This document shows, piece after piece, positions 5,174-26,629 of a stretch of 27,564 nt of DNA. Position 1 is the first letter of the stretch; the number at the start of each line of letters is the position of its first letter. The DNA is from a virus. The stretch spans positions 1-27,564 of IMG/VR virus record IMGVR_UViG_3300024259_000131; one strand, 5' to 3'. The position numbers and the translations under genes were made by a program. The notes under the pieces are model-generated. The model made no database searches and was not told the origin of the DNA. It saw nothing but the letters and a program-made list of their open reading frames with translations.

Positions 5174-8070
5174 ACTTTAAATTTCCCTTCGTATCCTTTA
5201 CGTGTTACTATCTTGTACCCATTCTGATAAACAACCGAATCAGTTTTCTTGTCCCTAATGTCTCTTAGGTATGAGTTTGTTCTACTCATGTCAACCGAAT
5301 TGTAAGTTGAGTTTATCGCTTGTTGTGCCAATATCCTTGATGTTTCATCGTGTGGAATAATCTCAGTACCTAATGGAACACCGCTTAACACACTCGCTTT
5401 GTTTGGAGTTAAGAATGTTTCTCCGCTTGGTGTTATTCCTAGTTCAACACCCTTTTCACCTGCTACTATGCTATCGGTTGACGTTATGCCACCTTCTGCA
5501 AATTGGGGTAATGGTGCTGATAATGCTGCTGCTAATTGTGCTGCACCTATCGCTGCCACCGCTGCGGTTAATACTCCTGCTGAAATACCAAAATCAAATT
5601 TAGGTACTTGCGCCCAAATTCCTATTATTGATTGTGCTGTGCTTAATCCAATATTAAATGCTGCCTGTGCTTTTGCTGCAATCGCTTGTCTTTTGGCTAT
5701 CTTGCGTTCCTCTTTTTCAAGTTTTCTTTTTGCTACAAGTTGAGCAGCAACAGAATCACCTGCGAGTTGCATGTCCCTGTCGTACCTGTCTTGCGCTCGT
5801 TGGGATTGATTATCTGAAAATTGCTGTTGTATGTCGAATGCAGCATTAGCACTATCACCTATAAAGTTAAGTGTATTTTGCAATTCTTCTCTTTTAAGTC
5901 TTTCTGTTTCAACAGCACCTTTGCGAATTGTCTTTTGTAATTCTTCTTCTAATTGTTTTTGTTTTTCAGCAGCAGCCTCTTTCTCAGACAATAATGTTTT
6001 ATCACTATCAATTATATCTTGTTGTAACCGATATTCAACCCCTAATAATTCAGTTGCTAATTTTACTTCTGTTGCTTTTCTTTTTGAAGCTCTATTTTTT
6101 GAATCTACTAAATCTTTTGTATATTTTGTGGCTATGGCTGCTCTTTCATCATTTGCTGTTGATATAAGTTCAGATATAGCTGCATCACTTTTATACTGTA
6201 AATATTCATCGTCTAATTCACGCAACCTTGCGTAAAGATTTGCTTTTTCAATTTCCGTTAAATTATTATATAATCTACCTCCTTTAAGATTTGACAAAAT
6301 ACGTTCCCTGTCTAATGCAATTAACTCTTCAGTATTTCCTCTCGCTAAAGATAATCTTTGTATCCACCACGCCTCTATAACTTCCATTGCGCTTTCGTAT
6401 CCACCCTCTATTTCTACAAATTCAGCATTTAACTCTTCTGCCGTTTTTTGTGATATTGACACTAATTCATCAGGAGTAAATGGTTGCGACTTTATGGTAT
6501 TAAAATATTCTGTTAATTTTTTTATTACACCAGATATAGCACTTGTTTCTTGTTTTCTAGCATCAACCATTTTTTGTGCATTCAATAGCGGTGCAGCAGC
6601 AGTTAATCCTAATGTCTGATTTATTTTCTCAAGTCCTTTTGCACCGCCCTTGCTTAACGCTAATATATTGAATAACCTATGACTAAAACTGTTTGCTATA
6701 TCATCCCTTTCTTCCTCTGATTTTTTTAATTGCTCTGATTGAAAAATTTGGTCTTTCTGTAAATTACCTATTAGTTCTATCGTTTTGGCTCTTTTCTCTT
6801 CTGCTGTTCCTGCATCGTTTATTAATAAGAAAGCCTCAGATAACATTTTGTTTTCTTTGGAACGTATAATATCGCCTCCGTCTTGCATCGCCTCTCTTAT
6901 CTTTTCAATAGATGTAGCTATTAAATCTAATCCTTTTGCTATGATTGGCGCTGCTTCCATTTCTTTGACAAAATCTTGCCACGATAGGGTAAGTCTCGTT
7001 TGTGCCGCAATAAGTGTATCAACTCTTTTAACGTTTTCTATGCCAAATGCTTTCTCTAGCTGAATTGCAAATTTAGGCAATGCCTCGGATGATAGAATTT
7101 CACCCTTTTTTAGCATTTTGTCTAACTGAGGTATAGTGACACCTATTGCATCTGCCATAATACCAAAAGCACCGGGAATCCTTTCACCTAACTGCCGTCT
7201 CAATTCTTCTGTCGTAACCTTACCCTTAGATAACATCTGTTCTAATGCTAAATAAACACCAGTAAGTTCGTCTGTTCTTAATCCAAGAACACCTGCTGCC
7301 TTTGTTACCGACTCAAAAATATCTTGTGTTACCTTAGCTGAAAGATTTGATTGTTTTGCTGCTGCTATAAATTTTATGTACCTGCTAGTTGTAGAAACTA
7401 ATTCAGCACCGTAAGCCTTTGTTATTCTACTTAAAAAATCATAAGTTGCAGATAACTCTAAATTATCAACAATTACCTTTTTCATGGCAAAGTCTATCGA
7501 ATCTAATTGCTTGGTTGTGGTTACAATGCTATTAAATACCCTGATTGCCTGATTTACTCCAATCATAGATAAAAGATAAATACCTGCTGATTTTGCTAAG
7601 TTTTTAAAAGATGTTGATAGTGATTTATTTCCTTTTAATGCTTTTTGCCTGTCTCTTTCTGCTTGTCTTGCTGCAACAGCCCTTTCTCTTGCCAACTTTT
7701 TTTCTGTTGCCGCAACTCGTTTATAAGCTGCAACACGTTCTGCCATATCCTTTTTGAAATCAGTATTTTCTTTTTTCTTTTGTGCTGATGCTGCCTTTGA
7801 TGTAGCTATTAAAGTATCAGATGTTTCTTTGGCTCTTTGTTTTTCAAGTGCGAGTAAACTTGTAAATTCTTTTGTATTTTTCTTTAGTCCTTCAAATGCA
7901 ATTTCTGTTTTTTTAGCATCTTCTGATAATTTTTTTAGTCCACTGTCTTTCACGCCCGACTTCATCTTCTTAGCCTCTGCTAATATCTTCTCAAATTTAA
8001 GCACAATCTCAGAAAACACCTTTAAAGCATCTTCACTAATTATATCCGTTTTAAGAATCTTTCCGCTCAT
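5170..8070 (-). CDS. Tape measure protein
   Basis: A 966-residue protein that sets tail length and is packed inside the tube before ejection. Residues 1-150 are Lys/Glu/Ala-rich coiled coil. Residues around 200-345 carry the conserved tape-measure domain: TSRYIKFIAAAKQSNLSAK, then LRTDELTGVYLALEQMLSKG, EELRRQLGERIPGAFGIMA and a QLEKAFG end. A long charged coiled-coil middle follows, then hydrophobic segments near residues 795-850 (AKAQAAFNIGLSTAQSIIGI; GVLTAAVAAIGAAQLAAAL) and a FAEGG turn common at the end of such proteins. By the usual rule of about 0.15 nm per residue the tail would be roughly 145 nm. It overlaps the chaperone frame upstream by 20 nt and the next gene downstream by 4. Confidence 0.93.
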   Translation of the reverse strand: MSGKILKTDIISEDALKVFSEIVLKFEKILAEAKKMKSGVKDSGLKKLSEDAKKTEIAFEGLKKNTKEFTSLLALEKQRAKETSDTLIATSKAASAQKKKENTDFKKDMAERVAAYKRVAATEKKLARERAVAARQAERDRQKALKGNKSLSTSFKNLAKSAGIYLLSMIGVNQAIRVFNSIVTTTKQLDSIDFAMKKVIVDNLELSATYDFLSRITKAYGAELVSTTSRYIKFIAAAKQSNLSAKVTQDIFESVTKAAGVLGLRTDELTGVYLALEQMLSKGKVTTEELRRQLGERIPGAFGIMADAIGVTIPQLDKMLKKGEILSSEALPKFAIQLEKAFGIENVKRVDTLIAAQTRLTLSWQDFVKEMEAAPIIAKGLDLIATSIEKIREAMQDGGDIIRSKENKMLSEAFLLINDAGTAEEKRAKTIELIGNLQKDQIFQSEQLKKSEEERDDIANSFSHRLFNILALSKGGAKGLEKINQTLGLTAAAPLLNAQKMVDARKQETSAISGVIKKLTEYFNTIKSQPFTPDELVSISQKTAEELNAEFVEIEGGYESAMEVIEAWWIQRLSLARGNTEELIALDRERILSNLKGGRLYNNLTEIEKANLYARLRELDDEYLQYKSDAAISELISTANDERAAIATKYTKDLVDSKNRASKRKATEVKLATELLGVEYRLQQDIIDSDKTLLSEKEAAAEKQKQLEEELQKTIRKGAVETERLKREELQNTLNFIGDSANAAFDIQQQFSDNQSQRAQDRYDRDMQLAGDSVAAQLVAKRKLEKEERKIAKRQAIAAKAQAAFNIGLSTAQSIIGIWAQVPKFDFGISAGVLTAAVAAIGAAQLAAALSAPLPQFAEGGITSTDSIVAGEKGVELGITPSGETFLTPNKASVLSGVPLGTEIIPHDETSRILAQQAINSTYNSVDMSRTNSYLRDIRDKKTDSVVYQNGYKIVTRKGYEGKFKV

Positions 8071-8803
8071 TTTCCTCTTTTATGCTTTTTAAAATAGCAG
8101 CCCACTCTTGCAGTAAAATGTCGCTATTAACTTTGTAATCTCTTTTTCTTACCTGTGCCATCATAACGTAAAAATCAACAGGCTTTTCTTCTTTTGGTTT
8201 ATCAGTAGTCTTTAAATCGTGATTAGTAATCCTACCTTTTATCTTTTGTTTTATTTTAGATAAGTCACCTTTTAGTCCTATTTCCTCTAAAGCGTCCCAT
8301 CCTGAGTCTTGTCCCAATTCTGCCAACATTACTGCTGCTTTCATTTCAAGTAACTCGCAGTCCCACTTAACGTCCTTTCTAACGCCCTTTACGAACTCGT
8401 TAAACGAACTTTCATCTATGTACTCATAATATTCAGACGTTATCGCTTTCCATGCCGTGTGTGCGTTCTCATTCGTTTCCTTCTGATTCTTTTTCAGCAA
8501 GTTCATCGCTGATTCCCATTTTAGGTTTAACTTTGGCAGACTTTCGCTTAATTCTTTTGGGGATAGGCTCTCTAACTGTTTCTGTTCGGTCTGTATCTCC
8601 GATAACGCTTTCTGTATCCGATAAAATACTTTCGCTTTTATTTCCTCGAAACTCAATAAGTTCGACAAATCCGTTACTTCCGACACTTTCTTTGTTTTCC
8701 GTAAAGTCGTAAATCTTTTTACCCACGCCACGAAGCGAAAATACGTGTAAAACAACATCGACTTCCATTTCTTCGGAATACCTAACAGCCAAACTTTTGA
8801 CAT
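8051..8803 (-). CDS. Tail assembly chaperone, frameshift extension (gpGT-like)
   Basis: This frame is open from 8803 and overlaps the 124-residue chaperone gene in another phase, then continues alone from 8468 to 8051 and into the tape-measure start. This is the layout of the lambda G/GT pair, where a programmed frameshift makes a longer chaperone that binds the tape measure. The unique part, about 140 residues, is charged and helical (TSEYYEYIDESSFNEF; a DSGWDALEEIGL stretch; VDFYVMMAQVRKRDY). Relative to the upstream gene the frame is +1 (equal to -2), not the common -1. The region 8469-8803 of this frame may be only shadow. Independent initiation at an internal ATG near 8510 is possible. 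The pairing is well supported by position; the frameshift itself is inferred. Confidence 0.65.
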   Translation of the reverse strand: MSKVWLLGIPKKWKSMLFYTYFRFVAWVKRFTTLRKTKKVSEVTDLSNLLSFEEIKAKVFYRIQKALSEIQTEQKQLESLSPKELSESLPKLNLKWESAMNLLKKNQKETNENAHTAWKAITSEYYEYIDESSFNEFVKGVRKDVKWDCELLEMKAAVMLAELGQDSGWDALEEIGLKGDLSKIKQKIKGRITNHDLKTTDKPKEEKPVDFYVMMAQVRKRDYKVNSDILLQEWAAILKSIKEENERKDS

Positions 8804-8843
8804 AATCCTTATCTTTCCTTTTTTCGTTATTACAACAAGCCAT
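8469..8843 (-). CDS. Tail assembly chaperone (gpG-like)
   Basis: A 124-residue protein directly upstream of the tape measure region, in the place of the short tail chaperone. It starts MACCNNEKRKDKDYVKSLAV; the middle is beta-like (EVDVVLHVFSLRGVGKKIY) and the C-terminal half is charged and low-complexity (IPKRIKRKSAKVKPK), like the linker before chaperone frameshift sites. It ends at TGA 8469, while a second open frame overlaps it from 8803 and continues to 8051. No enzymatic motif is seen. The call rests on position and overlap architecture rather than recognised sequence. Confidence 0.6.
   Translation of the reverse strand: MACCNNEKRKDKDYVKSLAVRYSEEMEVDVVLHVFSLRGVGKKIYDFTENKESVGSNGFVELIEFRGNKSESILSDTESVIGDTDRTETVREPIPKRIKRKSAKVKPKMGISDELAEKESEGNE
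8489..8495 (-). other. Candidate frameshift site (G AAAAA G)
   Basis: On the minus strand the short chaperone frame reads GAA-AAA-GAA here, shortly before its stop. A 2-nt backward slip of tRNA-Lys within the A-run re-pairs fully and enters the frame reading AAG-AAT-CAG that continues to 8051. It is not a canonical X-XXY-YYZ heptamer, and a +1 shift elsewhere in the overlap is not excluded. Confidence 0.35.
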
Positions 8844-8854
8844 AATCTTTATTT

Positions 8855-9310
8855 TTAATATCCAAGTTCTGCTCTTATTTTTTTAAGCAACGTATCTATC
8901 ATTATTTTGATTAAAAAGTCTAAGTTCTCATCGGTAAGACCATAAACATTATATTCTGCTGAACCAACAAACAAATCACCACCTTTTTCATCAGATGATT
9001 CTATCAGTAACCCATCACCTTCCAAGACAGTTTTAAATCCATCAAAGAAATCACCTTCGTTAAAATAGTTCCAATGTGGAGATATTGCATTATTGTAAAT
9101 TCCAGCAGCTATTTTGCTTGACACATAAGCTCTCGATTTTATGCTACCCGTGTGGCTTGGTGTTGGTTTCCCATCTGCCATTAACCCATCAAGTAACTGT
9201 TGTTGGTTCATGTCTATAATAGTCGGTGACATTTCCCTTAACATCTCACCCACTAATTTCCAAATATCCAACTTCTTAAAACGACTTATCTGTTGCTCAA
9301 TCTTATCCAT
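8855..9310 (-). CDS. Tail-module protein between tube and chaperones
   Basis: A 151-residue protein that is helical at both ends (MDKIEQQISRFKKLDIWKLV; LDFLIKIMIDTLLKKIRAEL) with a Gly/Asp-rich centre. It lies between the tail-tube gene and the chaperone pair, 34 nt downstream of the tube stop and 11 nt upstream of the chaperone start. Proteins here are usually tail assembly or minor tail factors. I do not recognise the family. Confidence 0.5.
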   Translation of the reverse strand: MDKIEQQISRFKKLDIWKLVGEMLREMSPTIIDMNQQQLLDGLMADGKPTPSHTGSIKSRAYVSSKIAAGIYNNAISPHWNYFNEGDFFDGFKTVLEGDGLLIESSDEKGGDLFVGSAEYNVYGLTDENLDFLIKIMIDTLLKKIRAELGY

Positions 9311-9344
9311 CTAAAAAATAAGGGGCTTTTAACACCCCTTTATT
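9311..9344 (-). terminator. Short hairpin after tail tube gene
   Basis: The 34-nt gap after the tail tube gene contains AGGGG-cttttaaca-CCCCT on the plus strand (5-bp stem, 9327-9343 approximately). On the minus strand it forms the same stem, followed by TTATTTTTTAGATGG, so it could act as a partial terminator that lowers transcription of tail genes relative to the abundant tube protein. Confidence 0.45.
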
Positions 9345-10223
9345 TTATGATATAGTGCCTAATGTTATTTTTCCACTTGATATTACCTTCACTGTGTCAA
9401 TCCTATCAACAGGGGATGCTAAATCAACAAAATAACCCGTTGCGAATGTTGAGGAAATAGTATATCTACCACGAACAGTTGCGCTCTCAGCAACCGCAGT
9501 TACCGCCACTGGAGTTGACCCATTTAAGTTAGTGAAACTAAGTACTCCTGTATCATCTATGCCACTAATTTGTTTGGTTTGTCCACCACAATCAGCAGTT
9601 ACATCAACCACAACCGCATCAGATGCTTCTGTGACCATTGTTACCGTAACTTCAGTCAATCCATCAACGTCATCAACATCCCATGCCATTTTACGAGAAT
9701 AATCGTACTCATTCAAATCTTTGTCAGATTTTAAGTCGATAACAATTTTTACCATTTCGGTATCTGCCATTGTAGGGATATTCCCTTTCTCGATGTTCAC
9801 GTTCTCTAAACGAATAGGAACAATGTTCACCCCTGAGTCAACGGTACGCCCACGAATTACATCGCCATAAACTAAGTAGATTCCCTCTTGGAAGCCCCTG
9901 AAGTTTAGGAGTTGCTTTTTAACACACTCGTTAACATCAAATGAAACCGCAAAACGGTAGTTTCCCTGCTCCATTAGTCGTCTTGAACCATCGTCATAGT
10001 CTTTATAAGTAGGTTCTGTTGACAAGTCCTCAATCGCCTTCATATTCTGTAAAGGAAAGACCTGTTGTGCCTCTACATCATCATCCCAAGTAGCTTCTAA
10101 CAAAAAGTTAGCTGCCGTATTGGTGTTTCCGTCTATTGCGAACATGATTCCAGTAGGCTTACCGAATCTGCTGTTTTTATCGCAATAGTTTTGTCCTGTG
10201 TATCCTGTTGTACTACATGCCAT
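9345..10223 (-). CDS. Major tail tube protein with C-terminal Ig-like domain
   Basis: A 292-residue protein in the tail tube position, after the neck proteins and before the chaperones. The first about 190 residues read as a tube domain (GIMFAIDGNTNT, QQVFPLQNMKAIEDLSTEP, YRFAVSFDVNECVKKQLL). The last about 100 residues are a Thr/Val-rich beta-sandwich (TEVTVTMVTEASDAVVVDVT, then SGIDDTGVLSFTNLNG), of the kind that decorates the outside of tail tubes in many siphophages. The gene ends just before a short hairpin-like repeat (AAGGGGCTTTTAACACCCCTT) in the gap to the next gene. The call is mainly positional with fitting composition. Confidence 0.6.
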   Translation of the reverse strand: MACSTTGYTGQNYCDKNSRFGKPTGIMFAIDGNTNTAANFLLEATWDDDVEAQQVFPLQNMKAIEDLSTEPTYKDYDDGSRRLMEQGNYRFAVSFDVNECVKKQLLNFRGFQEGIYLVYGDVIRGRTVDSGVNIVPIRLENVNIEKGNIPTMADTEMVKIVIDLKSDKDLNEYDYSRKMAWDVDDVDGLTEVTVTMVTEASDAVVVDVTADCGGQTKQISGIDDTGVLSFTNLNGSTPVAVTAVAESATVRGRYTISSTFATGYFVDLASPVDRIDTVKVISSGKITLGTIS

Positions 10224-10227
10224 AATA

Positions 10228-10773
10228 TTAACAATTATTGTATTTTTTAACTTTTAAATTTTTAATTCGTATCTCAATCGCATCAAGGTAATCGTTGAAC
10301 GCTGAACCATCAACCCCAAAGATTGCCTCTTTGCCCCAAAAGACTCTATCGTACTTACTGTATTCTATGTCCGCTTTTGATGTTATATTAAGATAATTAC
10401 TTCTTACTATGCTCCCCAATAAATATTGCCATATAGGGTAAAGAATCGGCTTAAATGAATAAGTATAACGCAAATCACTTGTGTAACTCGGATTGGTGTC
10501 AGTAATAATAAGAATCTTTATTTCGGGTAGTTCATACTCGTATGATTCTCTTTCTACACTCACCTCTTCAAAGTCTTGCAACAAAACAATAAGTGGATAT
10601 TTCTTCGTCCTTTCGGTTGAATCGGTGTCTTTGATTGTAAGTCGCTTTAATACGTCAAGAATGTGACCGTACATAAAATAAGGCTTTTCCTCATTCGTAG
10701 GGTCGTATGATTCCTGAACATTTGCAACTATGTCCTCAAAAACATCAACAAAATATCTACTGTTTACTGTCAT
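10228..10773 (-). CDS. Neck / tail-completion protein
   Basis: A 181-residue protein between the head-tail connector and the tail tube, where tail terminator or completion proteins lie. It is alpha/beta: an N-terminal helix (FVDVFEDIVANVQES), a strand-rich middle (YPLIVLLQDFEEVSVERES; EIKILIITDTNPSYT), and a Lys-rich end (RIKNLKVKKYNNC). The alternation of buried strands and a long helix fits the tail-terminator fold. The start overlaps the upstream stop by 4 nt. Family assignment by sequence alone is uncertain. Confidence 0.5.
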   Translation of the reverse strand: MTVNSRYFVDVFEDIVANVQESYDPTNEEKPYFMYGHILDVLKRLTIKDTDSTERTKKYPLIVLLQDFEEVSVERESYEYELPEIKILIITDTNPSYTSDLRYTYSFKPILYPIWQYLLGSIVRSNYLNITSKADIEYSKYDRVFWGKEAIFGVDGSAFNDYLDAIEIRIKNLKVKKYNNC

Positions 10774-11381
10774 ATTCCAAATGCGTTAATCTTCCATAAA
10801 GGAGTGAAAACCCAATCGTCATAACTTGCTACATTAGCTAACAAAAAGTTGTATGCGCTAGGTTCAGGAGTAACGTGGCTGTAATTACTTTTGTCCAAAA
10901 AGAAGTCCATGTATTTTTTGTAACCTCTGTTTTGTTCACCGTGTATCTTAACCAAATTATTCCAAGAACTAACCATCTTAACTGTCGCTGCATGAGCAAC
11001 TGAATTTTCACCCTTTCCTCTTCTTTCTCCTAATCCTGAATTGAAACTTTCTACATTCTTTCGTTTTTGATAGTACACGTAATAGGCGATTGGAGAAACC
11101 AACTCGGTATTAATCAATCCTTCCCATTTAGTGCTTATAGTATTTCCACAGTAATCGAACGAGAACTCAGCACCTTCTATTAAATCACCATAAACAGTAT
11201 AAGTACCACTGTCTATCTCTACCTGAACAGCCTTCCATAAGGTGTATCCAAGTAATAATTTGAGATATTCAGGTTCATACCTAACTATTCCTGCTGTTAA
11301 CGGTGCTGCCAATTCTACTGTTGACCCAACGGGAACATCTATGTCACGAACGAAATATGTATTATCAATCAGGTTTGCCAT
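10770..11381 (-). CDS. Head-tail connector protein
   Basis: A 203-residue protein after the capsid block. Key segments are EYLKLLLGYTLWKAVQVEI, a DYCGNTISTKWEGLINTELV core and VSPIAYYVYYQKRKNVESFN, patterns I associate with the adaptor proteins of Bacteroidota siphophages: a largely helical neck protein under the portal. It is followed with a 4-nt overlap by the neck/completion gene and preceded by the 49-residue gene. No catalytic motif. Moderately sure of the role, less sure of the family. Confidence 0.55.
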   Translation of the reverse strand: MANLIDNTYFVRDIDVPVGSTVELAAPLTAGIVRYEPEYLKLLLGYTLWKAVQVEIDSGTYTVYGDLIEGAEFSFDYCGNTISTKWEGLINTELVSPIAYYVYYQKRKNVESFNSGLGERRGKGENSVAHAATVKMVSSWNNLVKIHGEQNRGYKKYMDFFLDKSNYSHVTPEPSAYNFLLANVASYDDWVFTPLWKINAFGI

Positions 11382-17097: not shown

Positions 17098-18867
17098 TTA
17101 TTTTAAGTGCTGCTTCATCAGCCTTTTAACAACGTATGCCATACTTGGCAATATATTCGCAGCGCACGACTCATTTGCCCCCGACTCAGTAGTATATGCG
17201 TTTAGTTGCTGCATGAAACTCTTATAATAAGTGCTTTCATTGCCTTTCTCAAACACAAAATAGTCTCTTATAAACCCTGATTCACTGATTATCATATTAT
17301 CCTCTTGGGTAAATTCCTTAATCGTCCTTACGGGAATACCCAAAACCTTTAACTCTTTAGCAAAAGCAAGAAACGAAGGCGAACATTCTACAAACACCCT
17401 CTTTGCACCAACGAATTTGTCTTTTATTTGCCCTAAATTATCACTCGGAAGCATACTATTGAAAATACAGTCTGTTATGAATATCTTTTTGTCCTTAATC
17501 TTAGCGTGTAACCCCAAAAAATTGTAATCAGTGTTCTTGCTGTTCGTACTTGTTAGTTTTATGTAAGCAAAATCATAACTATCGGTGAAATCGTATTCCT
17601 TCCAGTATTTTAGATTATCGCGATTGAATATCTCTGAATCTGAATAAACACCAACTGGAAACAAGTGAGTGAACCCGTAAACCAACGCATCTAGCCGATT
17701 TGGTGACTTATCACCAACCGCACCAGTGTAATTACACATTTCTTCCTCCGCATCAGGAAATCCACCTACATGACTTATTCTGTCGCTGTCGTAAATTGCC
17801 GATATTGGTTCTGCCCTGAGCAACTTACCTTTAGTGGCGTGTATTCCCTTGACAGGAATGTTCTCGTCCGCAGTCTGGATGGTGTGTTTTACCATGTCTC
17901 CGCCCTGATTTGTCTCAGCAACTACCCAATTAGCATCCCATTTATTATACAAAGAAACAACTTTCTTGCTCCACTCTTTTGGGGTGTAAATACCTGAAGA
18001 ATCTTGCAATAAATATCCCCTATCGTCAAACCCCTTGCCCGTTACTACTATTCCAGTTTCGTCAGATGACATCTTGGCAGTAGTAGCAGGGTCAACAGAA
18101 ATAACAACCTCTTTTAACTCAGGATGAACCGTAACCCTATTCCTGTTAAAATTAGACTCAGTGAACAACGCCCCTAGTTCATCATCTGAAAATTCACCGT
18201 CCAAGAAACGTTTTCGCTGTTTAGCAGGTAAAGACTGAAGCATCTCAATGTAATCATCTGATATGTTCTGCTCATTGTCAGCAGGGTTCATTTTTAATTC
18301 ACCATACTGTTCAGGATTCTTTAGTAAAGTCTTGTCTGACGGCTCTAAGTGCTTGAAGAAAATCTGATACGACCAATGCGACTTCTTTGGTGGGTTTTCG
18401 TCTAGGAATATCCTGTTTACTAATCCTGACTTCTGTGCAAGCCTTGTTTTTAAGATAGTGTAAGCATCATAAGCAATCTGTGAACACTCATTGTACCATA
18501 TTGTAGAAAATTCCGTTCCGAGTATCTTCTCTAGCCCACGACTCTCGTCTATACCAGAGAAATGTATCTCACTACCATTGGCAAACGTAGCATAGAAATC
18601 CTGTTTGTTTAACTTGTAGTCAACACCCATTATCTCCGCAACCTCAGGGAATGTCTCATTCACAATAGACTTCTTTACATCAGAAAAATGTAGCCTAACT
18701 ATAACATGACGAGACTTCTTTTTCAATGCCCTGTAAATTATCAGAAACATTATGATAAAAGATTTTCCACTTCTAGAGCCTCCGTAAAGTAGTGTAAACT
18801 TGTTACTTAGCAACGTATCAAGTGCTTTTTCCTGTTTTGGGTTCTTGTTAAAATCTATATTCGTCAT
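17098..18867 (-). CDS. terL: Terminase large subunit with duplicated RNase H-like domain
   Basis: A 589-residue packaging motor. The ATPase has Walker A GGSRSGKS at residues 29-36 and a Walker B-type strand with catalytic Glu127 (STIWYNECSQ). The nuclease domain shows Asp259 (SVDPAT), Glu318 (VVAETN) and Asp393 (NRLDALVYG), completing it by about residue 405. A further about 165 residues follow, from YDFAYIKL to the end, and repeat the same pattern: strands of an RNase H fold (NTDYNFLGLHAKIKDKKIFI), an acidic strand (VFVECSPSF, Glu494) and a final helix (ESCAANILPSMAYVVK). The first catalytic Asp is absent, and the last is Asn571 or missing. Standard TerL proteins end after the first nuclease. 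Its ATG overlaps the radical SAM stop (ATGA). Confidence 0.92.
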   Translation of the reverse strand: MTNIDFNKNPKQEKALDTLLSNKFTLLYGGSRSGKSFIIMFLIIYRALKKKSRHVIVRLHFSDVKKSIVNETFPEVAEIMGVDYKLNKQDFYATFANGSEIHFSGIDESRGLEKILGTEFSTIWYNECSQIAYDAYTILKTRLAQKSGLVNRIFLDENPPKKSHWSYQIFFKHLEPSDKTLLKNPEQYGELKMNPADNEQNISDDYIEMLQSLPAKQRKRFLDGEFSDDELGALFTESNFNRNRVTVHPELKEVVISVDPATTAKMSSDETGIVVTGKGFDDRGYLLQDSSGIYTPKEWSKKVVSLYNKWDANWVVAETNQGGDMVKHTIQTADENIPVKGIHATKGKLLRAEPISAIYDSDRISHVGGFPDAEEEMCNYTGAVGDKSPNRLDALVYGFTHLFPVGVYSDSEIFNRDNLKYWKEYDFTDSYDFAYIKLTSTNSKNTDYNFLGLHAKIKDKKIFITDCIFNSMLPSDNLGQIKDKFVGAKRVFVECSPSFLAFAKELKVLGIPVRTIKEFTQEDNMIISESGFIRDYFVFEKGNESTYYKSFMQQLNAYTTESGANESCAANILPSMAYVVKRLMKQHLK

Positions 18868-20069
18868 TGTTTGAAGTATTTTTCAGTAACAGCAAAGTAT
18901 TTGCCTGCAAGATAATGAATCGTATCGACAATTTCCTTACTCGCACGTTTTGTTTTTGGTAGGATAATACCATTATGGGAATAAACATCTAGCCCGTGTC
19001 TTAGTATCTCATGATACATGTCGCTTACAGGAAAGGCATACGCACGATTTAAGGACACATGGTCTAGCCCTAGCTTTCGGATATTAACAACATTCAGAAT
19101 CATATCGTATATCGACTCTTCTGGCAAACCAACGATGAAACTACCAACTGTTTTTATGCCATATTTGTAACACGCCTCTAGTGCGGTCATTGTTTTTCTA
19201 TAATCAGTTCCCTTGCTTACAGTTCTCAATATTTTGTCGCTTGTGTGTTCTATCCCAAACCAAATAACAGAACACCCACCATCGGACATTATTCTTGCTG
19301 TCTCATCGTTGATAGCATCGACCCTACTCTCACACTTCCACATAACAGGCATATCATTACAAATAGCAGTTAGTCTTTTCTTGCTTATAGTGAAATTGTC
19401 CTCTCGGAAATAAATACTCTTAGTGCCTATCGTTCTTACTAGATATTTAACCTCGTCAACTACATTCTCAGCACTACGCATTGTGTATTTCTTGTCCCAA
19501 ATTATCCTTGACGAACAAAACGAACAGTCATAAGGACAACCCCTTGATGATATAACAGTATCTGTCGGAAAATCTAACCACTTCTCATGCCGATTATAGT
19601 CTTTTAAAACAACTCCACCCCTGTAAGGATACAATAGGTCATCTAAATTCTTTTTACGGCTTAAATTAACTATCTTATCACGAGACTTAAAATCATAATC
19701 ATCTGCCTCACCTATCACAATCTGACTGAATTTAGTGTCGTACATATCGTAATTCACAGTAGCATTCGCACCACCGTAAATAGTAAATACACCGTTTTGC
19801 ATCAACGTCCACGACAAACTAACTGCTTGCTCTGACTCAAATATAGTTCCACCAAACCCTACCACATCATAATTTTTTAGTCTGAAATACAACTCAACAT
19901 CGGTCATGTTATTAACACGATTGTCGATAAAATCAATGTCAGCGGGTGAATTAGCTACAATAGAAAGCATCCCAAGCGGTAACAAAGACTTTTTGGGGCG
20001 TGTCTCTACTACTCCATCAAATTCTCTAGGTAACAGATTACCCCTCGGATAGACTAACGCAATCTTCAT
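18864..20069 (-). CDS. B12-binding-like radical SAM enzyme
   Basis: A 401-residue enzyme. The N-terminal about 130 residues fit the B12-binding Rossmann domain of this class (PRGNLLPREF, YGGANATV at 98-105, IGEAD at 119-123), without the DxHxxG His that binds cobalt in the base-off form. The radical SAM core has Cys178-x3-Cys182-x2-Cys185 (RGCPYDCSFC), then FGIEH at 271-275 and a GSFIVGLPEES block at 309-319. Known members methylate or rearrange unactivated carbons. Its ATG overlaps the upstream glycosyltransferase stop and its stop overlaps terL, so it is in one translational unit with both. In a phage it is unusual; a sugar or glycan substrate is inferred from neighbours. Confidence 0.85.
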   Translation of the reverse strand: MKIALVYPRGNLLPREFDGVVETRPKKSLLPLGMLSIVANSPADIDFIDNRVNNMTDVELYFRLKNYDVVGFGGTIFESEQAVSLSWTLMQNGVFTIYGGANATVNYDMYDTKFSQIVIGEADDYDFKSRDKIVNLSRKKNLDDLLYPYRGGVVLKDYNRHEKWLDFPTDTVISSRGCPYDCSFCSSRIIWDKKYTMRSAENVVDEVKYLVRTIGTKSIYFREDNFTISKKRLTAICNDMPVMWKCESRVDAINDETARIMSDGGCSVIWFGIEHTSDKILRTVSKGTDYRKTMTALEACYKYGIKTVGSFIVGLPEESIYDMILNVVNIRKLGLDHVSLNRAYAFPVSDMYHEILRHGLDVYSHNGIILPKTKRASKEIVDTIHYLAGKYFAVTEKYFKQ

Positions 20070-20659
20070 ATCGAATCTATCATTTTGTGTAACTTATATT
20101 CTCGGTATAACCGCCTTAGTTTTCGGTAAACAGGGATATTACAAGACCTATAAGACGTATGTGTTCTCCGGGTGCAAAAAATCTTGTCAACATACTTAAA
20201 CTTATCCGAGTACTGAAGTAATAAATGCCACCAATAATAATCAGCACCATGAACAATATTAGGATACGGTGCTTGCTTCGCCAACCAACCCTTCATTATT
20301 ACCCCAGAATAAGGAATAAAATTGTATTTCAAAAATAACTCCTTATCAAAATCACGACTCCGATATAACTCTCTTGTTGTTGGACTGTAATTAAGCGTAT
20401 TTCCGTAAACTAAATCATAATCTTTTAAGTACTTCACATTATCTAACCAACCTTCACAAGCGGTATCGTCAGCATCGAGCAAAGCCACTATATCATCGTC
20501 CTTAACCCCTGACAACATCCTGTTCATTACAACACCCTTACCCTCATCGAACTCGTCAATCGAAAGTATGTGTACACAATCCATATTATTAGTAGAAGAT
20601 AAACACGAATCTATAAATTCCTTGTGCCTATTTCCGCAAGCCGTTAATACTTTTATCAT
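20066..20659 (-). CDS. GT-A family glycosyltransferase
   Basis: A 197-residue glycosyltransferase of the GT2-like type. The start VLTACGNRHKEFIDSCLSS is the usual nucleotide-sugar strand/loop; the DxD motif is LLDADD at residues 60-65, followed by GWLDNVKYL. Farther on it has SGVIMKGWLAKQ and an acceptor-region HGADYYWWHLLLQY. It lacks a membrane anchor. It is shorter than many GT2 enzymes, but both ends look complete. Stop overlaps the radical SAM start (ATGA); the start overlaps the preceding GT-B-like gene by 32 nt. It probably adds a sugar to a phage-modified acceptor; the acceptor is unknown. Confidence 0.75.
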   Translation of the reverse strand: MIKVLTACGNRHKEFIDSCLSSTNNMDCVHILSIDEFDEGKGVVMNRMLSGVKDDDIVALLDADDTACEGWLDNVKYLKDYDLVYGNTLNYSPTTRELYRSRDFDKELFLKYNFIPYSGVIMKGWLAKQAPYPNIVHGADYYWWHLLLQYSDKFKYVDKIFCTRRTHTSYRSCNIPVYRKLRRLYREYKLHKMIDSI

Positions 20660-21278
20660 TATTCTCTATAAATTTAATAATATCTTCCACATTAGGATTT
20701 TCCTTCGACCAGTAATAAGGAATGTCATTCTTCTCACACTCAATTACCATCCTAGGATAGCCATCGTGACGATTTGGGCGAATCATTACATCAATAAAAG
20801 GATAAACCTTCGACATATCTGCATCACCATTTGCCTCGATAACATTAATGCCCCTAGAAGAAACAACATCTAGTATGTTTTCAACCTTCTTCGCATTAAA
20901 CCAATCGTGTGTGAAATTACCAACAACATCTTGCATCACATCGTAGCCATATACCCAATCCTTGAAAACCTGATTAGAACCCAATCCACGATAATACAAA
21001 ATGTTAAAACTCCTATGAGCCTTCTTAACAAACTTCTCATCATACAAGGGCGGGTCAACCAAAACCTTTATAGCACTCTTTAACCGCAAAGGTCGAAGCT
21101 CATCTATCAAATGTTCTGACACAACATAAAAACCCTCTACGAATAAATCACACAGCTTAATAAACACAGTGTAACCTAACATGTAAAAATACTTGCTGAA
21201 CTTAGTTGGGAATTTTCGACCACCTACCAACCTTGTCGCAAACAATACATCCGAACCAGTAAACATTAATCTCGACAT
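20628..21278 (-). CDS. GT-B-like (GT4-type) glycosyltransferase
   Basis: A 216-residue protein with a C-terminal motif typical of GT4 enzymes: DVMIRPNRHDGYPRMVIECE, where the Glu of ECE corresponds to the E-x7-E donor-binding element. Upstream are FNILYYRGLGSN and a TSxxGINVIEAN-like strand. The N-terminal half is shorter than in full GT4 enzymes, so it could be a minimal form. It ends 32 nt inside the next gene, and its start is 4 nt after the 37-residue membrane gene. The order places it with the GT-A and radical SAM genes as one cassette. Confidence 0.6.
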   Translation of the reverse strand: MSRLMFTGSDVLFATRLVGGRKFPTKFSKYFYMLGYTVFIKLCDLFVEGFYVVSEHLIDELRPLRLKSAIKVLVDPPLYDEKFVKKAHRSFNILYYRGLGSNQVFKDWVYGYDVMQDVVGNFTHDWFNAKKVENILDVVSSRGINVIEANGDADMSKVYPFIDVMIRPNRHDGYPRMVIECEKNDIPYYWSKENPNVEDIIKFIENNDKSINGLRK

Positions 21279-21282
21279 AACA

Positions 21283-21396
21283 CTAAATTAACCCCCAGTG
21301 AATAGTAAAATAAATAATCTCAGCCAAAGATAATAACAAACCAATAGAAATAACTACGGCTATTATAACCTGACTCTGTCGCTTAATCTTTTTCAT
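21283..21396 (-). CDS. 37-residue single-span membrane peptide
   Basis: ATG 21396 to TAG 21283 encodes MKKIKRQSQVIIAVVISIGL plus 17 more residues, with a transmembrane stretch from about residue 10 to 32. It starts 4 nt after the 99-residue gene and ends 4 nt before the glycosyltransferase start. A basic N-terminus and one hydrophobic span fit a membrane anchor or a small membrane toxin/holin-like peptide. Only its fit in the row of genes and its composition support it. Confidence 0.55.
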   Translation of the reverse strand: MKKIKRQSQVIIAVVISIGLLLSLAEIIYFTIHWGLI

Positions 21397-21400
21397 AGAT

Positions 21401-21700
21401 TTATAATTTATACTTTTCTTGTAATCTTTTTAGTTCATTCAACTCCAGAAGCTCACGACTAGCATTGAAACGTCTCTCCTTCTCAATTCTTTCATTGCAC
21501 TCTTCTACTGTCTCTACCCTAGTAGATATTGCGTTAATTTCAGTATTAGCACAGTCATAGTAAACATTAGATTCAATATCAACATGAGTCGCACCAAGTT
21601 TCTCTATTGCGTCTAAATCATCACGCAACTGCTTTATAGAAACACCACATAACCAATCAAGGGCGTAATCTATCTTGAAATCTAATACTAACTTTTCCAT
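21401..21700 (-). CDS. Small alpha/beta protein, first gene behind promoter B
   Basis: A 99-residue protein (MEKLVLDFKIDYALDWLCGV), then a KLGATHVDIESNVYYD segment and a Glu/Arg coiled-coil end (NERIEKERRFNASRELLEL). The segment GATHVDI followed by a paired RxET (RVETVEEC) is a pattern I have seen in small phage proteins of unknown role. It begins a run of six tightly spaced genes to terL. Its start is 14 nt after the -7 box of promoter B, which is next to a dyad. Confidence 0.55.
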   Translation of the reverse strand: MEKLVLDFKIDYALDWLCGVSIKQLRDDLDAIEKLGATHVDIESNVYYDCANTEINAISTRVETVEECNERIEKERRFNASRELLELNELKRLQEKYKL

Positions 21701-21714
21701 AATCTATTTTTAAA

Positions 21715-21746
21715 CAAAGATGCAAAAACTATACGCAATATACAAA
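21715..21746 (-). promoter_or_regulatory. Promoter B (for GT/radical SAM/terL genes)
   Basis: Minus-strand TTTG (21746-21743), 20 nt, CATCTTTG (21722-21715): a Bacteroidota promoter with one mismatch in the -7 box. The dyad at 21746-21760 touches the -33 box. Confidence 0.55.
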
Positions 21747-21935: not shown

Positions 21936-22121
21936 TTATCGTTTCTTTATTCTGTTTATTGCAGACTCGAAATATATCTCAAAATTATTGTATTTATGGA
22001 AGGTGTTGGACTGTCTCCAAGTTGCTATCGTGTTCCTGTTTATGTTCAGGTAGTTAGCCGCTCCGGTTGCTGTTGTGAATATCTCGGCTGTTCTCTCCTT
22101 AGTGTTTACTATTACATACAT
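21936..22121 (-). CDS. Small HTH-type DNA-binding protein
   Basis: A 61-residue protein between terS and promoter B. MYVIVNTKERTAEIFTTATG is followed by AANYLNINRNTIATW, which reads as a helix-turn-helix: a short helix, a turn and an Asn/Arg-Asn-Thr-Ile recognition helix. The end is basic (INRIKKR). It resembles NUMOD1-like or MerR-type small HTH domains found in phages. I choose ATG 22121; the frame is open to a GTG at 22154, with a weaker leader. It is a candidate reader of the repeated dyads, by proximity only. A plus-strand frame over the same bases has poor composition and was left out. Confidence 0.6.
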   Translation of the reverse strand: MYVIVNTKERTAEIFTTATGAANYLNINRNTIATWRQSNTFHKYNNFEIYFESAINRIKKR

Positions 22122-22205
22122 ATTCTTATCTACATTATTATATTTACTATGCACCTATCGCGAGTAGATGCATGGTTTGCCCTCCAAGGGTGCTATTATT
22201 CTATT

Positions 22206-22279: not shown

Positions 22280-22762
22280 CTATTCATTGTCAAGTTTCCC
22301 CTTTAGTCCTTCATCAACTACATTCACAGATATGTTCGTGTTTGTGGCTTTTACCTCGTGTTTGTCTGTGAGTCCTTGCAACCTGCTAACTATTAGTGGA
22401 TTCATTAGTCCGGCGGTCGCACCGTTTATTTGATTCTTTGCTATCTTTAGCTTTGCACGTGTAATAATATCGGATAACTGATTTATTAGATTAACATTAT
22501 CCTCTCCCTTTTTATTGTTTTCATTGCTTGGCTTCCTGTCTTTGTGGTATAAGTCATAAAATGTGTCAACGTCTAAATTTATGTCATAGCATAGGGCTTG
22601 GATGCTATATACTACTGGCATAGGAACAGGTAGTATTTTCCCTGCTTCTTTGCCTGTCTTTACTACTTCGTTTTTTATTAGTGGGTTGTTGTCGGCATAT
22701 TCAAAATATTTATTAATCTTGCTTTGTAGTTGTTCTGGTGTGTATTTATAAGGTCGTGCCAT
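22280..22762 (-). CDS. terS: Terminase small subunit
   Basis: A 160-residue protein that recognises the packaging site and feeds DNA to TerL. The start MARPYKYTPEQLQSKINKYF is the well-known opening of the gp3/Terminase_3-like small subunits, with an HTH-like region next (IQALCYDINLDVDTFYDLYH) and a C-terminal oligomerisation part with ATAGLMNPLIVSRLQGLTDK, conserved in this group. It has an unspaced neighbour upstream (59-residue gene) and a hairpin downstream. Unlike most phages, it is separated from terL by about 3.4 kb of other genes. Confidence 0.88.
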   Translation of the reverse strand: MARPYKYTPEQLQSKINKYFEYADNNPLIKNEVVKTGKEAGKILPVPMPVVYSIQALCYDINLDVDTFYDLYHKDRKPSNENNKKGEDNVNLINQLSDIITRAKLKIAKNQINGATAGLMNPLIVSRLQGLTDKHEVKATNTNISVNVVDEGLKGKLDNE

Positions 22763-25289: not shown

Positions 25290-25304
25290 ATAGAGAAAAT
25301 CTAT
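25290..25304. promoter_or_regulatory. Operator-like dyad copy 5 (ATAGA-N5-TCTAT)
   Basis: ATAGAGAAAATCTAT, extended to CAATAGA...TCTATTG (7+7 bp), in the gap before the 401-residue gene. It is the longest-armed copy, which favours true dyad selection. Confidence 0.6.
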
Positions 25305-25374
25305 TGATAAAAAACAAACATAAAAAACAGGCATTGCATGGTTGCTACTTCCAGTCTAAAAAACTGGTAAAAAA

Positions 25375-25382
25375 TAAGTTTG
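25375..25382 (+). promoter_or_regulatory. Candidate -7 box for the 401-residue gene
   Basis: TAAGTTTG matches TAnnTTTG, 41 nt before ATG 25424. No TTTG at the right distance upstream, so it is weak. Confidence 0.3.
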
Positions 25383-25423
25383 ATTCTTATTGTGCCACAA
25401 ATTTAATTTTAAAAAACAATCAA

Positions 25424-26629
25424 ATGAAAAAAACAGAAGTTATCGAAATATTCAAAACTAATTTCGATAAAAAAAACAAGTTAAACAGGTTAAACAAATC
25501 AATTAACAGTGACATACTGGACAAAATTGAACATGGGTTAACCCTTGAAAGTTTGGAGGTAATTACAAAGGACTTACCAGTATTTAAGTACTATTCGCAA
25601 ATTACAATACATGGTTTGTTTCCTGAAGTTACCAATAACTATTGTTTTGGATATAAAAACATATTCCAGAATAAAAACAAATCTATTGGTGTTCGCTGGA
25701 GTGCCATTGATGAGATTAAACGTAAAAAAATGAATGCTTTTTTGAAACATTCAGATTATTTTTATCACCGCAATAGTACTGAACATTGTTTCAGGATAAC
25801 AAAAAGAGTTAACGAACAGAATTACACTTCCATTTTAGCAGACCTGAAAACCAAACTTGAAAAAATTGACACCTCTTTATTTTTCGGACATAAACAGATT
25901 TATGCAGCCGTTGGAATGTGGGGTGACAAATATTTAGTTTTACAGTTTTCTATTGATGCAATTTATGATAAAAATATATCTGTTTTATTGAATAAAATGG
26001 GTTACACAAAACAATGGTTAACGGAAAAGATTAACGAACAAAACAGTGCTGAAGTTGCCCGTAAAAAAGAATATGAATTAAGTGAAATTGCTGAAGACAA
26101 AAAACAAAAAGAAACTTGGGGCAAATCACAAAAAGATATTGATTTCCTGAATGAAAATTATAAAAAAGTAACCTCTATTGATGCTGGTATTTATTTGAAA
26201 CTTGAATTAAATTATCCGTACGAACAGGTTAAATTTCGGGTTGTTCGCTTAATTAAATTCGGCAAAAAAGCAAAAAGAAGTTTTTTAATATTCGATAATT
26301 TAAAAGATGCTTTAACTGTAAAAGAAAGTGATTTCAGCAATAATAAGGTGTCAAATTATCCTGTAAAAGATTTCTACTTACTGAATACAGGCGAGCCGCA
26401 AAAACCAGTTAAAACGGTTGCAACGGATGTTAAATCGGTTGGTGATATTGTTATCGTAAACTATTCAAAAAAAGCAATTGCAATTTTTGGAGATACAAAA
26501 CCTATTAAAGACAAATTAAGGTCTGCTGGTTGCCGTTTTAATGCTTATTTAACCTATCAAAACAAAAAACAGGCTGGTTGGGTTGCTCAAACATCAAAAC
26601 GTGCTGAAATTGAAGCTATATTGAACTAA
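25424..26629 (+). CDS. 401-residue protein with C-terminal GDTKPIKD-type domain
   Basis: The largest gene of the plus cluster. I choose ATG 25424 (A-rich leader AAAAAACAATCAA) over an upstream TTG. Residues about 1-180 are a Lys/Asn-rich region with ITIHGLFPEVTNNY and RHxSTEHCFR-like motifs; residues 215-245 are charged helix (RKKEYELSEIAEDKKQKE). The C-terminal about 55 residues contain AIAIFGDTKPIKDKLRSAGC, then RFN, and a GWVAQTSKRAEIEAIL end, a small domain I recall from Bacteroidota mobile-element proteins (pattern GDTKxxKDxLxxxGxRFN...GW). The role of that domain is unknown. A multi-domain accessory protein, perhaps a counter-defence or DNA-acting factor; that is a guess. Confidence 0.55.
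   Translation: MKKTEVIEIFKTNFDKKNKLNRLNKSINSDILDKIEHGLTLESLEVITKDLPVFKYYSQITIHGLFPEVTNNYCFGYKNIFQNKNKSIGVRWSAIDEIKRKKMNAFLKHSDYFYHRNSTEHCFRITKRVNEQNYTSILADLKTKLEKIDTSLFFGHKQIYAAVGMWGDKYLVLQFSIDAIYDKNISVLLNKMGYTKQWLTEKINEQNSAEVARKKEYELSEIAEDKKQKETWGKSQKDIDFLNENYKKVTSIDAGIYLKLELNYPYEQVKFRVVRLIKFGKKAKRSFLIFDNLKDALTVKESDFSNNKVSNYPVKDFYLLNTGEPQKPVKTVATDVKSVGDIVIVNYSKKAIAIFGDTKPIKDKLRSAGCRFNAYLTYQNKKQAGWVAQTSKRAEIEAILN

Follow-up and report, generated by a model that had tools for sequence, protein, structure and literature searches.

The window analyzed here is the whole of the presented stretch of DNA, 27,564 bases of a viral record. With Pfam and PHROGs, portal, capsid and tape measure proteins were recognized in it along with TerL and TerS, and because these were identified we take the window to be the structural region of a tailed phage and not a bacterial fragment. 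On the minus strand, the genes run in the order TerS, a 99-aa open reading frame (ORF), a 37-aa ORF, a GT-B-like glycosyltransferase (GT), a GT-A-like GT, a radical SAM enzyme (rSAM) and TerL (Table 1). The GT-B and GT-A genes overlap by 32 nt, the GT-A and rSAM genes by 4 nt, and the rSAM and TerL genes by 4 nt, ATGA (TTCAAACAATGACG). The ORFs, the overlapping three-gene cassette and the overlap of the rSAM stop with the terL start are exactly as an earlier, sequence-only reading of this DNA had claimed. The cassette does not directly adjoin terS, from which the 99-aa and 37-aa ORFs, both on the same strand, separate it.

Table 1. Features of the cassette and its surroundings in the window
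Feature	Position	Strand	Evidence
TerL, 589 aa	17098-18867	-	PF04466, 1.4e-21; start codon overlaps rSAM stop by 4 nt
Putative B12-type radical SAM enzyme (rSAM), 401 aa	18864-20069	-	PF04055, 1.9e-18; C178xxxC182xxC185; PF02310 weak, E 0.0057
Candidate short GT-A / GT2-like glycosyltransferase, 197 aa, D62-A-D-D65	20066-20659	-	PF00535, E 8.2e-4, below cut-off
Probable GT-B / GT4-like glycosyltransferase, 216 aa, tentative	20628-21278	-	motif RPNRHDGYPRMVIECEKNDIPYY; tblastn E 0.06
Putative 37-aa ORF with one apparent transmembrane stretch, upstream of GT-B	21283-21396	-	translation
99-aa ORF, first of putative unit	21401-21700	-	ORF listing
Promoter candidate, Bacteroidota-like TTTG-N20-CATCTTTG, upstream of 99-aa ORF	21715-21746	-	suggestive only
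TerS (GP3_package)	22280-22762	-	PF16677, 2.5e-14; phrog_606, 1.4e-20

The 99-aa ORF showed no credible family match in Pfam or PHROGs. The promoter pattern upstream of it (TTTG-N20-CATCTTTG) occurs twice in the window against 4.8 matches expected by chance, a count that is not significant. Between TerS and the cassette lies a further minus-strand ORF of 72 aa (21936-22154) with a NUMOD1-like match below cut-off (E 3.2e-4). On the opposite strand, a 441-aa ORF (25304-26629) gave a weak winged-helix match only and no PHROG.

The C178-x3-C182-x2-C185 motif was verified in the translation of the rSAM gene, and its score of 67.6 bits against PF04055 is well above the cut-off of 29.5. This places the protein in the radical SAM superfamily, an assignment that we regard as certain on the strength of profile and motif. 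The B12-binding domain described in the sequence-only reading is sub-threshold in the window protein and clear in its relatives. PF02310 had no match on the whole rSAM and stayed below cut-off on the trimmed N-terminus, whereas the relatives gave E-values of 2e-9 to 9e-14, with L038, L039, L048 and L193 above the cut-off.

The best NCBIfam models for the rSAM were HpnJ and ApyD, with top scores of 104 and 102 bits. These are far below every family cut-off (HpnJ, AprD4, ApyD and PhpK), so that the protein is a member of none of these families. The substrates of HpnJ and AprD4 are sugar-like. The rSAM core is common to the window enzyme and HpnJ (TIGR03471), but with a cut-off of 577.6 bits the former is a non-member. 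The core is also shared with AprD4 (NF033070, PDB 6fd2), which is the closest solved structure, and with the B12-rSAM methylases ApyD and PhpK, although none of these cut-offs was reached. The sole match among isolate phages was gp36 of Streptomyces phage SF3, a B12-binding radical SAM protein (26.7% over 47%). It differs in having thymidylate kinase and NUDIX genes as neighbors with no annotated GT nearby, and it falls outside the clade of the window rSAM.

For the GT-A gene, the GT2 profile PF00535 gave a partial match (63-132) of 19.8 bits against a cut-off of 23.3, and 1.4e-5 in a one-record search. Its best phage relative is a 198-aa protein of L204 (4258-4854; E 0.004, compared with 0.16 at best for the reversed-sequence control), which Pfam places above the GT2 cut-off at 7.5e-6. 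GT-A had no match among isolate phages, even with E-values of up to 1 allowed, and none in plasmids. We consider its assignment to GT2 marginal. In the case of the GT-B gene, a C-terminal motif, RPNRHDGYPRMVIECEKNDIPYY, resembles the GT4 donor site. The top two tblastn matches in plasmids, both sub-threshold, are a family-4 glycosyltransferase and a glycosyltransferase. No GT family in Pfam matched it, and neither isolate phages (E up to 1) nor 395 Bacteroidota genomes yielded a match, the latter in a search without a positive control. Profile comparison also revealed no relation to the GT-B-like proteins of L024, L028 and L036. Single-sequence AlphaFold models had pLDDT values of 45 and 34, too poor to use, and the model of GT-B was poor. 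Its product is thus only tentatively a GT-B / GT4-like glycosyltransferase. Of the two GTs claimed earlier, GT-A was upheld marginally, whereas GT-B draws on the motif and sub-threshold matches.

Single-protein scans of viral contigs with the rSAM, GT-A and GT-B returned no relatives, but rSAM alignment queries did find them. Among the matches listed, viral relatives reached E-values of 1e-58 to 1e-56, compared with 3e-38 for the best cellular one; the best 80 loci per scan were retained, so sampling is incomplete. In a tree, the window rSAM groups with L185, L188, L189 and L191 (100/99), and this group is nested in a 17-member, all-viral clade (98/91) with the sampled cellular rows outside. 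The 15 distinct clade records besides the window are L185, L186 (contig of L020), L188, L189 (identical to L021), L191 (a near copy of L022), L192 (L023), L193, L194, L195 (L024, with L196 a near copy), L197 (L028), L204, L206 (L036), L209 (L038), L212 (L039) and L218 (protein family of L048). As judged by alignment and tree, the window rSAM is assigned to a phage lineage. Rather than lying mainly in bacterial chromosomes, its closest relatives are viral among the matches listed, and the tree agrees. Recent capture and misassembly were also considered and rejected; in codon usage, the cassette departs from the phage core no further than single core genes do, and there was no sign of misassembly.

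Two observations concern other viral rSAM proteins. In an 850-aa phage B12-rSAM ORF (L226, 6363-8915), the B12-binding and rSAM domains are separated by a LAGLIDADG-like domain, which may represent an intein or a homing endonuclease. A second viral clade (L029, L031, L033, L034 and L044) has the order GT2, GT2, rSAM, epimerase and GT near structural genes, as read by eye.

We compared the synteny of the terS-terL region in TerL kin L002, L003 and L004 (69, 50 and 71%, respectively), where the cassette is absent from this place. In L003 and L004, the stretch from TerS to TerL spans 4-5 kb and is occupied by other ORFs, among them, by reading, an exonuclease, homing-endonuclease types and an adenine methylase. 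In L002, TerL is immediately preceded by two small ORFs and one that is exonuclease-like. Since close phage kin without the cassette carry other cargo there, the terS-terL gap is a slot for accessory cargo, and an overlap of 4 bases is nothing out of the ordinary. The earlier view that this insertion is unusual does not hold in light of the two kin with other accessory genes at the site. Likewise, the proposed coupling to the packaging motor was not sustained, as the ATGA overlap signifies common translation or transcription at most and no functional link to the motor. Elsewhere in its genome, L004 has a different radical SAM protein of 287 aa (L264, 1184-2047). In L027, a 1110-aa ORF after TerS (8019-11351) starts like an intein-interrupted terminase by eye (CFHGETLIPTDKGYKQIRDIESGDRVLSFN). 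The sequence-only reading had also assigned the phage to Bacteroidota. A Bacteroidota host was not confirmed by TerL, which gave one match, at 31% identity, in 395 Bacteroidota genomes.

The association of rSAM with GTs is most direct in five phage proteins that have GT2, B12-binding and Radical_SAM domains in one chain. These are L038 (1224 aa, GT1-GT2-GT2-B12-rSAM), L039 (908 aa), L048 (1276 aa), L193 (945 aa) and L246 (824 aa), the last being outside the tree sample. By comparison, only two of the best 80 cellular rSAM loci have an rSAM ORF longer than 700 aa, and GT domains are absent from both. GT2 proteins are encoded by all but one of the 15 distinct clade records besides the window (14 of 15), and the record without one is a fragment of 11.8 kb. 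No GT2 was found in either of the two kin phages that lack the cassette. The order GT-B-like, GT2, rSAM is repeated in L024 and L028 (ORFs read) and inside the L038 fusion (Pfam). After the rSAM, a PIG-L de-N-acetylase is encoded in L021, L022 and L185 (Pfam) and in L188 (by reading), which suggests that the sugar may be an N-acetyl sugar.

Pfam domains were also tallied for proteins picked by size near the rSAM. The window-side clade yielded 9 GT2, 7 GT1-like and 9 methyltransferase matches in 79 proteins, the second viral clade 18 GT2 and 7 epimerase matches in 76, and the cellular control 9 GT2 and 13 rSAM matches in 67. GT neighbors are therefore common around cellular rSAM relatives too, and GT linkage alone is not phage-specific. 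Phage relatives fuse the two activities and GT2 recurs across the clade, in agreement with the earlier proposal that rSAM and GTs form one unit. Taken together, these comparisons indicate that the rSAM and GTs very probably work in one glycan pathway. Alternatively, the rSAM could act on something other than a glycan, such as a peptide or cofactor, with the GTs as independent cargo in the same accessory slot. That slot does hold unrelated cargo in kin phages, and the rSAM domain is also highly similar to peptide- and phosphinate-acting families (ApyD and PhpK). However, the five GT-B12-rSAM fusions and the presence of GTs across the clade speak against this explanation, which we consider quite unlikely.

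Combinations of this kind have precedents. Marine phages are enriched in radical SAM and GT genes (PMC7150976), and pelagimyophages, like the window, carry GTs and radical SAM gene cassettes together, there in a host-recognition variable region, according to the accessible portion of that report (PMC7029224). Pelagimyophages are, however, large T4-like phages with these genes in a tail-fiber region, and that portion of the report contains no GT-rSAM fusion or packaging-gene context. No description of phage GT-B12-rSAM fusions was found in the literature searched, subscription journals lying outside it.

Within much of the 17-member clade, the rSAM/GT unit lies among terminase, portal, capsid or tail genes. 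In L188 it is surrounded by TerL (phrog_2, 4.7e-33), portal (DUF4055) and capsid (phrog_283) genes, and L204 has TerL and portal genes near it. A terminase in L023, capsid and connector genes in L038, a tail protein in L048 and a TerL relative in L039 are likewise near the rSAM unit. Head-completion and tail assignments in L036 and L193 were made by eye only, PHROGs being without match there, and no structural gene was identified near the rSAM in L194, L195 and L197, for example. Some nearness is to be expected in any case, as a small phage genome consists largely of structural genes.

The function proposed here for the cassette, from B12 use and the chemistry on the sugar to the time of expression and the target, is inferred. 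The two GTs would assemble a short glycan, and the B12-type rSAM would carry out a radical-based modification of a sugar in that glycan. C-methylation is the most likely reaction, with dehydration, epimerization and ring contraction as alternatives; the methylated sugar of the sequence-only reading is likewise something that we infer. The cassette would be made late, together with the packaging, capsid and tail genes, and the finished glycan would be placed on a virion protein. A virion protein is the most likely recipient, since units related to this one lie repeatedly among genes for packaging, capsid and tail, with which they would be co-expressed; we regard the virion as target as very nearly an even call. 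The complete account, a glycan cassette of phage lineage that is carried as cargo and expressed late, with an rSAM-modified sugar and the virion as likeliest target, is the one that we favor, tentatively and with somewhat less than even confidence. There is a parallel in mycobacteriophages, where glycans occur on capsid and tail tube subunits (Freeman et al. 2023, cited in PMC12619734) and phage-encoded GTs are taken to add them. It differs from the window in that no radical SAM enzyme is described there, as far as the available part of PMC12619734 extends.

Phage GTs are known to glycosylate DNA and host surfaces as well as virions. The cassette enzymes could instead act, during infection or lysogeny, on the polysaccharide of the host cell surface, and this remodeling would block superinfection or alter the receptor. 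Consistent with this, L185 has neighbors encoding a GT9 heptosyltransferase and a GT17, the neighbors in the wider family include epimerases (7 proteins) and DegT (3), and the window unit contains the small transmembrane ORF. The GTs of the pelagimyophage host-recognition region have also been interpreted in this way, in the accessible portion of PMC7029224. On the other hand, the cassette forms one overlapping block with terL and is hence expected late, when host remodeling would be least useful, and no flippase or polymerase gene was recognized among the examined window ORFs. Gene position favors the virion, whereas envelope-type enzymes in some relatives favor the envelope; we consider host-surface remodeling unlikely, though it ranks second to the virion.

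DNA, which the sequence-only reading had also named, is the least likely target. Here, the cassette would glycosylate a hydroxymethylated base in phage DNA before packaging, as protection against restriction. The cassette adjoins the terminase, DNA methylase genes lie near some relatives, and virus-encoded GTs hypermodify DNA (Pyle et al. 2024, Cell Rep 43:114631, as related in the available part of PMC12619734). Nevertheless, a thymidylate synthase/hydroxymethylase homolog (PF00303) was found in only two of 31 relative or kin viral records, a set with many fragments that does not include the window record, itself a fragment, and both are large phages outside the 17-member clade. This weakens the case for DNA and leaves it very unlikely. 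A Tet/JBP search returned zero matches including the controls and is hence uninformative.

With the virion as the preferred target, a wider proposition can be stated, namely that phages evolved a B12-rSAM family of their own dedicated to glycan synthesis. The family would occur as GT-rSAM cassettes or single-chain GT-B12-rSAM fusions close to genes for head and packaging, and would place radical-modified sugars on virions. We view this as rather doubtful, but if true, virions would bear sugars with radical modification of a kind not known from viruses. A radical SAM family of phage lineage that is linked to GTs, in some cases within one chain, would suggest that viruses make glycans containing radical-modified sugars. 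Phages would gain a chemistry with no known precedent in virion decoration, and the family would supply enzymes for sugar C-functionalization. The fusion proteins are direct test objects, as several pathway steps would sit in one gene. A fusion of another type was observed in L204 (1509-2804), where methyltransferase and GT2 domains are joined in one phage protein.
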